In this document: piece by piece, positions 9,399-60,001 of the stretch | How positions within the stretch are numbered: the stretch's first letter is position 1 | How the letters are laid out: each line of letters opens with the position of its first letter | NCBI GenBank assembly: GCA_013791855.1 | Contig: VMTA01000009.1 | Span: 1 to 64,000 of the forward strand | From: Sideroxydans sp. | Lineage (GTDB): Bacteria; Pseudomonadota; Gammaproteobacteria; Burkholderiales; Gallionellaceae | Direction of reading: 5' to 3' | DNA length: 64,000 nt | Made by a program: the position numbers and the translations under genes | Notes under the pieces: model-generated | Seen by the model: only the letters and a program-made list of their open reading frames with translations | The model's database searches: none | Told to the model about the DNA's origin: nothing

Positions 9399-9787
9399 GA
9401 GCGATCCAATGCTAAAGAGACGGAATTGAGGCAGTAACGCAAGCCTGTCGGTTCGGGGCCGTCTTCGAACACATGGCCGAGATGCGAGCCGCAGTTCGTG
9501 CAGACGACTTCGATACGGCCCATGCCGAGCGGGTCCTCGTCGCTGTATTCGACGGCCTCTTCCCGCACGGGTTGCCAGAAGCTGGGCCAGCCGGTGCCGG
9601 ATTCGTACTTGGTCTCGGCATCGAACAGCGGGGCACCACAGCATATGCAGCGGTAGACGCCGGGGTCGTGGCAATCCCAGTATTCGCCGGTGAAGGCGAC
9701 TTCGGTGCCGCCTTTGCGGCAGATCTCGTATTGCTCGGGCGTGAGTTCTTCACGCCATTCTTCTTCTGTCTTGTCGATGTCGCTCAT
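9395..9787 (-). CDS. msrB: cytoplasmic peptide-methionine (R)-S-oxide reductase MsrB
   Basis: This 130-residue protein reduces the R epimer of methionine sulfoxide in proteins. It carries the zinc CxxC pairs (CICC and CTNC), the substrate loop GTGWPSF and the catalytic Cys in RYCLN. It has no signal peptide, so it acts in the cytosol, unlike the exported MsrB at 19366. It overlaps gst upstream and yciB downstream by four bases each, so translation is probably coupled. Confidence 0.96.
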
Positions 9788-17693: not shown

Positions 17694-18329
17694 TCACCAC
17701 TTCAGTAATCGCGCTCCCAACGTCCATCCAACCAGTCCCATGCCCACCATCGGCAGGTAATGCCACTGCACAACGTGCAGGATCGAGTCGTTCACTTCGT
17801 ACAATCTCAACCAGATCGCGCCGACGCTGAACGCGGCCAGCAGGGCGAAGCTGCCCGCCCAACGCGGATAGGTGCTGGCGTAACCGCGAAGGACGAAGAA
17901 CGCCAGAGCAGCGGGGATCAGCGAGATGAAGGTGATGTCCAGCGTGCATTCGAAGCTGTGCACGGGGAAGGGGGCGGGTGGGGTGTCGGCGTGCCAGGCG
18001 AAGAACAGCAGCAGGATGAACGCGCCGAACAATGCGGCCGGGGTGTAGGCCAGCGTGCGCTTCTGGTGCAGGTCGGGGAAGGCGAGCAGGGCAGCGCTCA
18101 ACAGCGTGCCGAGCAGGATCAGCAGCAACAGCAGCAACTCGGCGGCGAACCAGGGGTTTTGCAGTGCATGGGCCAGATCGGAACGCAGGCCGGAGGCGGC
18201 CAGCGCGAGCAGCAGGTAGATGAATGCGGCACCGGCCCATCTCAGGCTCAGTTGCAGCGGTGCGGGCGCGGGGCGGATCGGCGATGCCTCGCTGCTCAGT
18301 TGCGCTACCAGTTGTTCGATGTCTTTCAT
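17694..18329 (-). CDS. nrsF: NrsF-type (DUF1109) anti-sigma factor, membrane protein
   Basis: This 211-residue protein has about six transmembrane segments after a short cytosolic N-terminus (MKDIEQLVAQLSSEASPIRP). Length, topology and pairing with an ECF sigma gene fit NrsF/DUF1109, which holds SigF-type sigma factors at the membrane until an envelope oxidant signal. Only one Cys is present (in FECTLD); characterised NrsF proteins often have more, so a Met- or partner-based signal is possible. The start overlaps the sigma gene stop by four bases; the longer track ORF runs through that gene in another frame. Confidence 0.87.
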   Translation of the reverse strand: MKDIEQLVAQLSSEASPIRPAPAPLQLSLRWAGAAFIYLLLALAASGLRSDLAHALQNPWFAAELLLLLLILLGTLLSAALLAFPDLHQKRTLAYTPAALFGAFILLLFFAWHADTPPAPFPVHSFECTLDITFISLIPAALAFFVLRGYASTYPRWAGSFALLAAFSVGAIWLRLYEVNDSILHVVQWHYLPMVGMGLVGWTLGARLLKW

Positions 18330-18868
18330 TTCTGTTCCAGTCTTTGTCTCAATACCTTGTAGGCGCGGTGGGCGGCGACCTTCACCGCCGATTCGTTCAT
18401 GCCCATCTGCTGCGCCGTCTCTTTCGCGGTGTAGCCCTGCTGGTGCATCAGGCGCAGGATGGTGGCCTGCTTCTCCGGGAGTCTTTCGATCTCCCCGCTG
18501 ATGGATTCGTAGCTGATGGCGGTTTCGGTTACATCGTCGTGCAGGATATTTTCCAGATCGGCGATATCTTCGGCATGGCGCAGATGGTCGGCGTAGTGCA
18601 TACGCAGGTGGTCCTGTAGCCTGAAACGGGCGATGGCATATAACCAGGGCTTGAAGGGGCGCTGGCCGTCGTAGGTGTGGCGCGCCTTGTGCACAGAGAT
18701 GAGGATCTCTTGCAGCACGTCGTCCACCTCGTGTTCGAAGCGCAGTCGTTTCGACAGGAACGGACGCAACAGTCGCGCGGTCTCGCGCAGCAAGTCTGCA
18801 TAGGCCTGCTTGTCGCCTTGCAGCGCCATGCGCATCAGGTGTTCGAGATCGGTGTGCTGTTCCGTCAT
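18326..18868 (-). CDS. sigF: ECF RNA polymerase sigma factor, SigF/NrsF-associated type
   Basis: This 180-residue ECF sigma factor has region 2 at about residues 20-90 (DVLQEILISVHKARHTY, then KPWLYAIARFRLQDHLR) and region 4 at about 125-178 (LPEKQATILRLMHQQGYTAKETA and a helix-turn-helix ending AYKVLRQRL). It is translationally coupled to the NrsF-like gene. It diverges from the Met-rich protein/Msr cluster, its expected regulon. No Shine-Dalgarno site precedes its ATG; the start codon abuts a GTAAC element of the candidate promoter running the other way. The name sigF rests on the partner gene and architecture, not on an alignment. Confidence 0.9.
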   Translation of the reverse strand: MTEQHTDLEHLMRMALQGDKQAYADLLRETARLLRPFLSKRLRFEHEVDDVLQEILISVHKARHTYDGQRPFKPWLYAIARFRLQDHLRMHYADHLRHAEDIADLENILHDDVTETAISYESISGEIERLPEKQATILRLMHQQGYTAKETAQQMGMNESAVKVAAHRAYKVLRQRLEQK

Positions 18869-18894
18869 GTAACTTTTTTTTCGTCGGGTCCGAA
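18869..18894 (+). promoter_or_regulatory. candidate SigF-type promoter for the Met-rich protein/Msr operon
   Basis: GTAACT (18869-18874), exactly 16 bases, then CGAA (18891-18894). This matches in form the GTAAC(C)-N16-CGAA pattern that I recall for SigF/NrsF systems. It points at the Met-rich gene with a predicted leader of about 85 nt. Confidence 0.55.
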
Positions 18895-18927: not shown

Positions 18928-18987
18928 TGCCTGGGATACCACCGGCATCGGCCAGCATGATGCCATCATACGAAAAAGGAGATTCAA

Positions 18988-19296
18988 ATGAACGCACTTC
19001 ACACAACATTGCTCGCACTCTGTCTGGCCGCCGGCAGCACCGCCGCCATGGCCAAGGACGAGATGGGGCATGGTGCCATGGAGATGAAGAAATCGGACAT
19101 GTCGATGGAACAGGGCACCATGCGCATGGAGCGCTCGGATGACAAGATGATGAAGCAGGACAAGATGGAAACGAAGAAAAAGCTGACTGAAAAAGAAAAG
19201 AAGGCGATGAAGAAGGCGCAGGAAAAGAAGATGAAGCAGGAATCCATGATGAAAGAAGAGAAGATGGAGCACGGCTCGATGCAGCCCATGAAGTGA
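18988..19296 (+). CDS. MrpX-like periplasmic methionine-rich oxidant-scavenging protein
   Basis: This 102-residue precursor has a Sec signal peptide (residues 1-22, ending AAMA). The roughly 80-residue mature chain has 17 Met and 20 Lys, no Cys or Trp, and is highly charged and presumably unfolded or helical. Short Met-containing units such as SDMSMEQ, RMERSDDKMM and KMKQESMM recur. In Azospira, an exported Met-rich peptide under SigF/NrsF control soaks up hypochlorite and is recycled by a methionine sulfoxide reductase. The same role is inferred here from composition, export signal, divergent sigF-nrsF and downstream msrB-dipZ-msrA. His residues could also bind copper. The ATG is preceded by AAAAAGGAG. 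Confidence 0.85.
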   Translation: MNALHTTLLALCLAAGSTAAMAKDEMGHGAMEMKKSDMSMEQGTMRMERSDDKMMKQDKMETKKKLTEKEKKAMKKAQEKKMKQESMMKEEKMEHGSMQPMK

Positions 19297-19365
19297 ACGT
19301 GAGTGCCGGTCGTGGCGGACGCCGCGACCGGATGGATGCAATGATCGATCGGTAGAGGTGTAATC

Positions 19366-19856: not shown

Positions 19857-21506
19857 ATGGACATGCTCGACATCGGCCTCGCATTTCTGGAAGGGCTGGC
19901 GCTCATCATATCGCCCTGCATATTGCCGGTGCTGCCGCTGGTGTTGGCCGCATCGGTGGACGGCGGCAAGCGCCGGCCGTACGGCATCATCATCGGCTTC
20001 GTGCTCGCGTTCAGTCTGTTCGCTGTCGCGGCGCGCGAGTTGGTGGCGCTGCTGGGTATCGATCTCGACGTGGTGCGCGACGTGTCACTGGTGCTGCTGG
20101 CGCTGTTCGGCCTGGTGCTGTTATCGGAGAAGCTGTCCGACCGTTTCAGCAAGCTGACGCAGGGCGCGGCAAATCTCGGCAACAGCCTGGCCGCGACACG
20201 CGGCGACGGCCTGCTCAGCGGCATCGGTATCGGCGCGCTGATCGGGCTGGTGTGGACGCCGTGCGCCGGGCCTATTCTGGCGGCGGTGCTGGTGCAGGTG
20301 ATCCGCCAGCAGAGCGACCTCGCCGGCAATCTGGTGATCCTGTCGTTCGGTATCGGCGCCGGTATCCCGATGCTCGTCATCGCGCTGACCGGGCGCAGGC
20401 TGATGAGCAAGCTGGGTTTCCTCACCCGTCATGCGCAAGCGGTGCGACGAGGTTTCGGTGTGCTGATCCTGGCATCAGTGGCTTACATCGCTTCCGGCGC
20501 TAACATCGAGACGCTGTTCATGTCGTCCGAACGTACTGACATTGCACAGGGCGAATCGAAGTTGGAGCATGGTCTGGAAGAACCTTACGCCGCGCCCGAA
20601 TTCGCCGGTATCGACAATTGGCTCAATTCTGAATCGCTGACCATGGCCGGCCTGAAAGGCAAGGTGGTACTGGTCGATTTCTGGACCTACTCCTGTATCA
20701 ACTGCGTGCGCACGCTGCCTTACCTCACCCGTTGGGATCGCAAGTATCGCGATCAGGGGCTGGTCATCGTCGGCGTGCATTCGCCCGAGTTCGAGTTCGA
20801 GAAGAAGGCCGCCAATGTGCAGGCCGCTATCGCGGAACATGGCATCGGCTATCCCGTGGCGCAGGACAACAAGCTCGACACCTGGAGCAATTTCGACAAC
20901 CGTTACTGGCCTGCGCATTACCTGATCGACCGCGAGGGCAGGGTGGTCTACACCCATTTCGGCGAAGGGCAGTATGGGGTGACGGAGAACAACATCCGCC
21001 ACCTGCTGGGGCTGGGCGAGAAGGCTGCGCAGACTTCAGAAGAAGCGCCGGCATTCTCTGCGATGCAGACACCGGAGACTTATCTGGGCTATGCGCGGGG
21101 GCGTAACTTCGAGAGCCCGGAGAGCGTGGCATCGGATACGACGAAACATTACAGCTTCCCTGCGAAGTTGCGGGATGACCATTGGGCGCTGGGAGGCGAT
21201 TGGCGTATCGGGTCGGACCGCAGTGTATCCATTGCGGCGGGCGCGAAGCTGCGGCTGGACTTCAATGCGCGCAAGGTGTTCCTGGTGCTGGGCACGGCCA
21301 GCGGCAAGCCGATCGACATCATTGTCAGTTTGAACGGGAAGGCGGTGGGCGCGGCGGCAGGCAAGGATGCGGCCACAGGGAAGTTGAGCGTGCGCCGCAA
21401 TACCTTGTACGAGCTGATCGATCAGGGGCGTATCGGGCGCGGCGTGCTGGAAGTCGAAGCGAAGCAGCCGGGGCTGGAGATCTACGCCTTCACCTTCGGT
21501 TCATGA
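19857..21506 (+). CDS. DipZ-like protein: CcdA membrane domain, thioredoxin domain and C-terminal module
   Basis: This protein of about 549 residues starts with a CcdA/DsbD-type six-span domain that carries the paired membrane Cys (SPCILP and TPCAGP). It continues with a periplasmic thioredoxin/redoxin domain (about residues 255-390; active site SCINCVR, cis-Pro region RYWPAHYLID) and a C-terminal beta-rich domain (about 425-549), the layout known for mycobacterial DipZ. It would carry electrons from cytoplasmic thioredoxin across the membrane; the flanking exported MsrB and MsrA are the obvious acceptors. I start at ATG 19857, six bases past AAGGG; a TTG at 19851 overlapping the msrB stop is the alternative. 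Confidence 0.92.
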   Translation: MDMLDIGLAFLEGLALIISPCILPVLPLVLAASVDGGKRRPYGIIIGFVLAFSLFAVAARELVALLGIDLDVVRDVSLVLLALFGLVLLSEKLSDRFSKLTQGAANLGNSLAATRGDGLLSGIGIGALIGLVWTPCAGPILAAVLVQVIRQQSDLAGNLVILSFGIGAGIPMLVIALTGRRLMSKLGFLTRHAQAVRRGFGVLILASVAYIASGANIETLFMSSERTDIAQGESKLEHGLEEPYAAPEFAGIDNWLNSESLTMAGLKGKVVLVDFWTYSCINCVRTLPYLTRWDRKYRDQGLVIVGVHSPEFEFEKKAANVQAAIAEHGIGYPVAQDNKLDTWSNFDNRYWPAHYLIDREGRVVYTHFGEGQYGVTENNIRHLLGLGEKAAQTSEEAPAFSAMQTPETYLGYARGRNFESPESVASDTTKHYSFPAKLRDDHWALGGDWRIGSDRSVSIAAGAKLRLDFNARKVFLVLGTASGKPIDIIVSLNGKAVGAAAGKDAATGKLSVRRNTLYELIDQGRIGRGVLEVEAKQPGLEIYAFTFGS

Positions 21507-21530: not shown

Positions 21531-22181
21531 ATGCGTTACTTTTCCATTCTCATCCTGTCCATGCTGATGAATGCTGCGGCATGGGCCGAAGGTCAGCTCA
21601 CCGCATTGCCGGCCCCGCTCGTCAATGCATCGCTCGCGGTAAAGTCGGCGCAGCAGACGGCGGTGTTCGCGGGCGGATGTTTCTGGGGCGTGGAGCTGGT
21701 GTTCCAGCATGTTAAAGGTGTGGTCTCCGCCACTTCAGGATACGCGGGCGGCACGGCGGACTCGGCGCGATACGATGCGGTGAGTCGCGGCAGCACCGGC
21801 CATGCCGAATCGGTACAGGTGGTCTACGATCCTTCCCAGGTCAGCTACGGCCAGTTGCTGAAGATATTCTTCTCAGTCGCGCACGACCCGACCCAGCTCG
21901 ACCGGCAGGGGCCAGATACCGGTCCGCAGTACCGCTCCGCGATCTTCACGACGGATGCCGGTCAACAGCGCATCGCACAGTCATACATCCGCCAACTGGA
22001 GGCGGCACGCGTTTACCCGCAAAGGATCGTGACACGGCTCGAAGCACTGCCCGCGTTCTATCCGGCCGAGGACTATCATCAGGATTTCGCCACGCGGCAT
22101 CCGCTCCATCCCTACATTTACTACCACGACCGCCCGAAGCTGGAACGCCTGAAGCAGCAGTTCCCGGAATGGTACGAGTGA
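21531..22181 (+). CDS. msrA: exported peptide-methionine (S)-S-oxide reductase MsrA
   Basis: This 216-residue protein has a signal peptide (about residues 1-19, AWA-EG) and a full MsrA domain with the catalytic GGCFWGVE. Other family blocks are [20 protein letters not shown] and the YHQDF region. The GGCFWG Cys is the only Cys in the protein, so there is no resolving Cys and the sulfenic acid must be reduced by a partner, most simply the DipZ-like thioredoxin domain encoded 24 bases upstream. It completes the pair needed for both sulfoxide epimers in the periplasm. It starts 6 bases after AAGGAGG. Confidence 0.94.
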
Positions 22182-58724: not shown

Positions 58725-60001
58725 ACACCTTGTTCCTGTTCTCCTGTCTGTTCTTCTTCATGGCCATCGGCATGCCGGTCGCCATCTGTCTGGGCCTTTC
58801 CAGCCTGCTCACCATCGCTTTCTTCGCCAACGACTCGCTGGCCTCGCTTTCAATCAAGCTGTACGAGACCAGCGAGCATTACACCCTGCTGGCCATTCCG
58901 TTCTTCATCCTCGCCGGGTCACTGATGTCCACCGGCGGCGTGGCACGGCGCATGGTGGATTTCGCCATCGCGGCAGTGGGCCATCTGCGCGGCGGTCTGG
59001 CCATCGCTTCCATCCTCGCCTGCATGCTGTTCGCCGCCGTGTCCGGTTCCAGCCCGGCCACCGTGGTCGCGGTGGGCTCCATCGTCATCGCCGGCATGGT
59101 GCGCAGCGGTTACCCGCAGCCGTTCGCGGCGGGGGTGATCTGCAACTCCGGCACGCTCGGCATCCTCATCCCGCCTTCCATCGTGATGGTGGTATATGCC
59201 GCCGTGACCGAAGTCTCGGTCGGGCGCATGTTCATGGCAGGTGTGATCCCCGGATTGTTGCTGGGGTTGATGCTGGCGATGGCAGTGCATTGGCGTGTGC
59301 GCAAGCTGAACATCGCGCCCACGCCGCGTGCGCCGCTGCGCGAAGTGCTGGGCAAGTTCCGCGATTCCATGTGGGGCTTGGCGTTGCTGGTCATCATCAT
59401 GGGCGGCATCTACGGCGGCGTGTTCACGCCCACCGAAGCGGCGGCGGTGTCGGCCGTGTATGCCTTGATCGTGGCGGTGTTCATCTACAAGGACCTCAAG
59501 TTCAAAGACCTGCCCGAGGTGTTCGTCGACGCCAGCAGAACCACCGTGATGCTGATGTTCATCGTCGCCAACGCCATGCTGTTCGCGCACGTGCTCACCA
59601 CCGAGCGCATCCCGCAGACCATCGCCGAGCACATCGTGGCTTACGGCATGACACCGTGGATGTTCCTGTTGGTGGTCAACATCATTCTGCTAATAGCTGG
59701 CAACTTCATGGAACCGACCGGGATCATCCTGATCCTCGCGCCCATCTTCTTTCCCATCGCCACCCAACTCGGCATCGACCCCATCCATCTGGGTATCATC
59801 ATGGTGGTCAACATGGAGATCGGCATGGTCACGCCGCCGGTGGGGTTGAACCTGTTCGTCACCAGTGGCATCACCGGCATGAGCATCATGGAAGTCACCC
59901 ATGCCGCCTTGCCTTGGCTGCTGGTATTGCTGGCCTTCCTCGGGCTGGTCACCTACATCCCCGAGATCAGCCTGTTCCTGCCGGATCTGCTGTTTAATTA
60001 A
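58721..60001 (+). CDS. dctM: TRAP transporter large permease subunit DctM
   Basis: This 426-residue permease has about 12 spans, family blocks GMPVAICLGLSSLL, AAVSGSSPATVVAVGSI, GTLGILIPPSIVMVVY and TPPVGLNLFVTSGI, and uses a sodium gradient. No DctB/DctD regulators are next to it, so the inducer and exact substrate are unknown. Confidence 0.96.
   Translation: MNTLFLFSCLFFFMAIGMPVAICLGLSSLLTIAFFANDSLASLSIKLYETSEHYTLLAIPFFILAGSLMSTGGVARRMVDFAIAAVGHLRGGLAIASILACMLFAAVSGSSPATVVAVGSIVIAGMVRSGYPQPFAAGVICNSGTLGILIPPSIVMVVYAAVTEVSVGRMFMAGVIPGLLLGLMLAMAVHWRVRKLNIAPTPRAPLREVLGKFRDSMWGLALLVIIMGGIYGGVFTPTEAAAVSAVYALIVAVFIYKDLKFKDLPEVFVDASRTTVMLMFIVANAMLFAHVLTTERIPQTIAEHIVAYGMTPWMFLLVVNIILLIAGNFMEPTGIILILAPIFFPIATQLGIDPIHLGIIMVVNMEIGMVTPPVGLNLFVTSGITGMSIMEVTHAALPWLLVLLAFLGLVTYIPEISLFLPDLLFN

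Follow-up and report, generated by a model that had tools for sequence, protein, structure and literature searches.

We propose that the first gene of a likely four-gene operon in Sideroxydans sp. probably encodes a rechargeable, MrpX-type methionine sink of the periplasm, in a variant served by thiol-dependent methionine sulfoxide reductases (Msr). The gene lies in the 64,000-nucleotide stretch of contig VMTA01000009.1 that was analysed, hereafter the window. Several observations point to this reading: the gene order, in which the mini-protein is followed by an exported MsrB, a DipZ-like donor and an exported MsrA; the neighbouring SigF/NrsF pair; a conserved and unique SigF-type promoter; purifying selection with the methionines kept; and the linkage of the TIGR02953 family to MsrP (21/36 loci), with none to CopA, CueO or Cus. 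Precedents are MrpX/YedYZ and exported MsrA/MsrB (PMC4623255), BcrXQP (PMC8315932) and the CcdA-thioredoxin-MsrAB relay (PMC3914529). The original prediction of a sacrificial sink recharged by Msr enzymes is partly supported, in that it fits the gene order, the promoter, the exported MsrB and MsrA with their CcdA-thioredoxin donor, and the MrpX/BcrX precedent. The features of the locus are as follows.

17694..18329, minus strand: NrsF anti-sigma factor (PF06532, 6.5e-40)
18326..18868, minus strand: SigF-like ECF sigma factor (PF04542, PF08281), divergent from the mini-protein operon
18869..18894, plus strand: putative SigF (ECF16)-type promoter GTAACTTTTTTTTCGTCGGGTCCGAA, directly outside the start codon of sigF, oriented towards the mini-protein gene
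18976..18982, plus strand: ribosome-binding site AAGGAGA, assigned from sequence, 5 nt upstream of the mini-protein ATG
18988..19296, plus strand: mini-protein gene, 102 aa, MrpX-like, Met/Lys-rich, predicted to be exported (signal peptide residues 1-22, mature part 80 aa)
19306..19331, plus strand: hairpin with an 11-bp GC-rich stem and no U tract, starting 9 nt past the mini-protein stop codon
19366..19854, plus strand: MsrB (PF01641, 8.5e-46; TIGR00357) with a Tat-like signal (DRRRF)
19857..21506, plus strand: DipZ-like membrane electron donor, a CcdA/DsbD transmembrane domain fused to a thioredoxin domain and Thioredoxin_10
21531..22181, plus strand: MsrA (PF01625, 5.7e-58) with a signal peptide

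The mini-protein and its coding status

The N-terminus of the mini-protein is hydrophobic and signal-like and ends at Ala22, the mature part starting at residue 23; both the cleavage site and export were placed by inspection. The mature chain of 80 residues contains 17 Met, 20 Lys, 17 Asp plus Glu, two His and two Arg, and is devoid of Cys, Trp, Phe, Tyr, Ile and Val. Our recount of the ORF therefore agrees with the composition first reported for it (a mature chain of about 80 residues, 17 Met, 20 Lys, no Cys or Trp). As in MrpX-type proteins, we are dealing with a small, Met-rich and, by inspection, exported protein without Cys. Finding at least 17 Met in 80 residues has a binomial P of 2.4e-11 against a background of 2.6%, and no other of the 269 window ORFs of at least 80 aa has a higher Met fraction. 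The runner-up (59641-59952, minus strand, 17% Met) is antisense inside a longer ORF and looks artefactual; since it is probably spurious, Met-rich composition alone is no proof of a gene. The structure model of the mini-protein was of low confidence, with no stable fold (pLDDT 60, pTM 0.22), and was too weak to be used in a structure search.

The mini-protein ORF is nevertheless a genuine gene under purifying selection, with its Met retained, because homologues occupy the same position in three congeners (76-79% identity) and comparison with the four closest relatives gives a dN/dS of 0.08-0.15 for the mature part. In these four, 15 of the 17 Met are invariant as against 41 of the 62 other residues of the mature part, an excess that is only modest and that we counted against the sink reading. 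A Met/Lys-rich ORF predicted to be exported adjoins sigF in 14 loci. The relatives named here belong to the Gallionellaceae and other Nitrosomonadales, many being labelled Sideroxydans or Gallionella, and are mostly metagenome-assembled genomes, in which some absences may be gaps.

The operon and its SigF/NrsF control

The likely operon runs from the mini-protein gene through msrB, which begins 70 bp downstream of it, and the CcdA-thioredoxin fusion to msrA. MsrB has four zinc-type cysteines and one catalytic Cys (C149), and the sole Cys of MsrA is catalytic (C50, in GCFWG). With a single Cys in MsrA and a single non-zinc Cys in MsrB, neither enzyme shows an obvious resolving Cys; an external thiol donor would therefore be needed, and the DipZ-like fusion is the natural candidate. 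This protein carries Cys 21 and 136 in its CcdA/DsbD part and a CINC motif (Cys 280/283) in its thioredoxin domain. Another MsrB copy of the genome, at 9407-9745 on the minus strand of the window, is probably a cytoplasmic housekeeping enzyme, and a DsbA-family oxidoreductase (PF01323; 22227-22871, minus strand) is convergent with msrA.

No terminator was found. The strong hairpin that follows the mini-protein gene recurs with the same stem when each of the four close relatives is folded separately, and substitutions preserve the pairing. It is possibly an mRNA stabiliser or an attenuator, and may raise the level of the first gene of the operon. In one related locus (L151), a SigF promoter-like GTAACC lies in the loop region of a strong hairpin directly after the sink gene stop.

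The promoter was assigned by motif and conservation. The element GTAACTTTTTTTTCGTCGGGTCCGAA fits the published motif of BcrS in Brucella (PMC8315932) and SigF in Caulobacter (PMC3511200). The loose pattern is uninformative alone, with 60 matches in the genome against 138 for the reversed control; the version with the T-tract, the distinctive one, occurs once among these 60, at 18869-18894. The same element occupies this position in 15 of the 19 related loci, and the four that have no divergent match (L063, L163, L167 and L172) are those with neither Msr nor a sink operon beside sigF. Motif and conservation thus both point to control of the mini-protein by SigF/NrsF (ECF16). A further GTAAC match (18506-18532, minus strand) was rejected as a promoter: it falls within the coding region of sigF, and in relatives the match reappears as conserved protein-coding sequence.

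In Caulobacter, two Cys of NrsF are implicated in regulation (PMC3511200). NrsF of the clade around the window genome, the window protein included, keeps Cys127 and lacks the second conserved Cys (C181 of the Caulobacter protein), which distant NrsF in the same alignment retain. The inducing signal may therefore differ in this clade, and we counted the loss against the sink reading.

We infer the following scenario for the export, oxidation and recycling of the sink, its electron path and the inducing oxidant. Envelope oxidant stress would inactivate NrsF, and the SigF thus freed would transcribe the operon, using its putative promoter (18869-18894). The mini-protein, a small, soluble and probably unfolded chain, would be exported, and its 17 spaced Met would take up oxidant and become methionine sulfoxides, sparing essential envelope proteins. 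Recharging would be shared between exported MsrA, reducing the S-sulfoxide, and exported MsrB, reducing the R-sulfoxide, the electrons for both enzymes being drawn from thioredoxin in the cytoplasm and relayed by the CcdA-thioredoxin fusion, as in the CcdA-Etrx-MsrAB relay. The host lineage consists of iron oxidisers that are not known to meet hypochlorite; the inducing oxidant is perhaps peroxide or Fenton chemistry in this iron-oxidiser-related lineage.

Methionine spacing, copper and the bufferin operons

The mini-protein matches no Pfam or NCBIfam family, and no match to TIGR02953 (pentapeptide MXKDX repeat) was obtained up to E 10. Its positional homologues in L059, L069 and L153 do pass the cut-off of that family (48, 55 and 47 bits, for a threshold of 41), and the L151 homologue, which aligns with the window protein at 52% identity, is intermediate at 27 bits. 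In the window protein 7 Met pairs are spaced by 5 residues, where shuffled sequences give 3.2 (P 0.013), and this spacing is enriched across the 14 homologues (96 against 40 expected). In our reading the mini-protein derives, with divergence, from an ancestor with MXKDX repeats; it shares the pentad Met spacing of the family and by score is a non-member. In a phylum-wide sample of TIGR02953-matched loci, an MsrP homologue was at most 5 kb away in 21 of 36. Two weak profile matches, a CusF-like protein (G008) and a cytochrome-like protein (G014), were discarded as sink genes on inspection.

The original prediction had also offered copper buffering as an alternative, in which the Met thioethers and the two His would bind periplasmic Cu(I) and the neighbouring Msr would repair collateral methionine oxidation. 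We consider this unlikely. The chain has only two His and no clustered MxM/MxxM or His-Met motifs, apart from two HG[A/S]M motifs, one at each end of the protein, that are conserved in the nearest relatives and speak for the copper reading. The close Met spacings that mark copper Mets motifs are rarer than expected in the 14 homologues (MxM 23 against 42 expected, MxxM 14 against 42), the reverse of the enriched spacing of 5. Moreover, no CopA, CueO or Cus homologue was found near the 36 sampled TIGR02953-matched loci by tblastn with E. coli queries, a search that can miss diverged copper genes.

What keeps the copper alternative alive is the distribution of bufferins, which chelate copper (PMC12452194). 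The mini-protein itself is not a bufferin, which would have a PF10048 (DUF2282) domain and an MNIO partner: it has no Pfam match, and PF10048 has no match in the window genome. Bufferin operons (DUF2282-DUF692-DUF2063-DoxX) adjoin SigF/NrsF in genomes that have no sink gene (L055, L056, L058, L062, L064, L067, L075, L076, L082, L156, L159 and L174). Of the 21 genomes of the genus that carry NrsF, the sink gene is present in 11 and a DUF2282 bufferin in 8, while 2 have neither and none has both; by locus the figures are 14 against 14, again with none carrying both. The raw hypergeometric value of 2.2e-4 for the 21 genomes ignores kinship and is not to be taken at face value. On the SigF+NrsF tree there are 6 and 7 changes of label, and the independent-pairs test, underpowered with only 4 pairs, gives p 0.25, so the exclusion is not significant once the tree is allowed for. 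Mutual exclusion in the genus is thus suggestive, and the replacement of the gene by bufferin operons in sister genomes was counted against the sink reading.

Most of the bufferin operons adjoining SigF/NrsF also have the MsrB-DipZ-MsrA genes. As the Msr genes occur with either module, sink and bufferin operon seem to be alternative cargoes. In several congeners sigF and the Msr genes persist without the sink gene, which implies that Msr has other clients and also weighs against the sink reading. We tentatively raise the possibility, which we would not yet favour, that one SigF/NrsF envelope-stress regulon in Gallionellaceae can have either the Met-rich sink or the copper-chelating bufferin operon as its output, the two being interchangeable and each lineage keeping one of them. 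If so, the mini-protein would take over the function of a RiPP metal chelator, or bufferins would be part of an oxidant response. In any case, the sink-or-bufferin pattern offers a way to test whether the defences against oxidants and copper are linked under a single sigma factor. An exported Tat-like protein of about 240 aa (L055:6065-6820; homologues in L056-L061, L065, L067, L068, L075 and L076), "FecR-like" by inspection only, either separates the sink gene from msrB or adjoins bufferin genes, and is absent from the window's operon.

Slightly less probable still than a dedicated copper buffer is a dual use, one chain acting as oxidant sink and weak copper or silver ligand with both stresses read by SigF/NrsF-type systems. 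Such systems do read heavy metals in Caulobacter and HOCl in Brucella, the Caulobacter SigF controls both the YedY/MsrP gene and bufferin-type operons (DUF2282-DUF692-DUF2063; PMC3511200), and in the loci of relatives one module replaces the other next to this sigma factor; however, nothing in the mini-protein points directly to a metal site, and its model is fold-free and of low confidence. That the ORF is spurious, or a decaying gene with no function, is very improbable, as its low complexity and the artefactual look of the second Met-rich ORF are outweighed by the dN/dS, the ribosome-binding site, the dedicated promoter and the position conserved in 14 loci.

Relation to known methionine sinks

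The rechargeable methionine sink that we favour resembles MrpX of Azospira suillum PS, where periplasmic methionine cycling detoxifies hypochlorite with YedYZ as partner (PMC4623255): in both, an exported Met-rich peptide adjoins sigF/nrsF and a methionine sulfoxide reductase. This likeness is one of gene context, and recycling here would fall to MsrB, the DipZ-like donor and MsrA, without MsrP/MsrQ. Indeed, PF00174 (the MsrP family) had no match in the window genome and 24 congeners, and the thiol-based set of the operon takes the place of MsrP/MsrQ (YedYZ). Brucella melitensis provides a second parallel in BcrX (bcrXQP, BcrS/AbcS), with an ECF16 sigma/anti-sigma pair, a Met-rich first gene and a GTAAC...CGAA promoter with a T-tract; HOCl induces BcrXQP (PMC8315932). 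BcrX has MXKDX repeats and MsrPQ, whereas the window operon has a degenerate repeat and thiol Msr.

Exported msrA and msrB are known from the perchlorate islands of P. militaris MP and D. hydrogenophilus LT-1 (PMC4623255), where predicted periplasmic thiol Msr likewise occur in a sigF/nrsF-mrpX functional context. These genes accompany the YedYZ-MrpX function, whereas those of the window are the only methionine sulfoxide reductases of their operon and have a dedicated DipZ-like donor. As exported msrA/msrB were already noted beside MrpX function in two such islands, the novelty of the present variant lies in its details rather than in its kind. A membrane thiol relay also feeds extracytoplasmic MsrA/MsrB in the pneumococcal CcdA-Etrx-MsrAB2 and Haemophilus MsrAB/CcdA systems (PMC3914529, PMC9404787), and the window operon shares this feature; the portions of these two papers considered here describe no dedicated Met-rich sink protein.

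Similar Met-rich sinks being already known, the new part is the replacement of the usual molybdenum repair enzyme by a thiol-based set. The idea of a rechargeable methionine sink would thereby extend to bacteria without detectable MsrP, electrons arriving through a thiol relay. In another family of the order, a putative sink gene is paired with MsrB and MsrA, with no MsrP neighbour detected (L245), and an MsrAB fusion lies nearby in L244.
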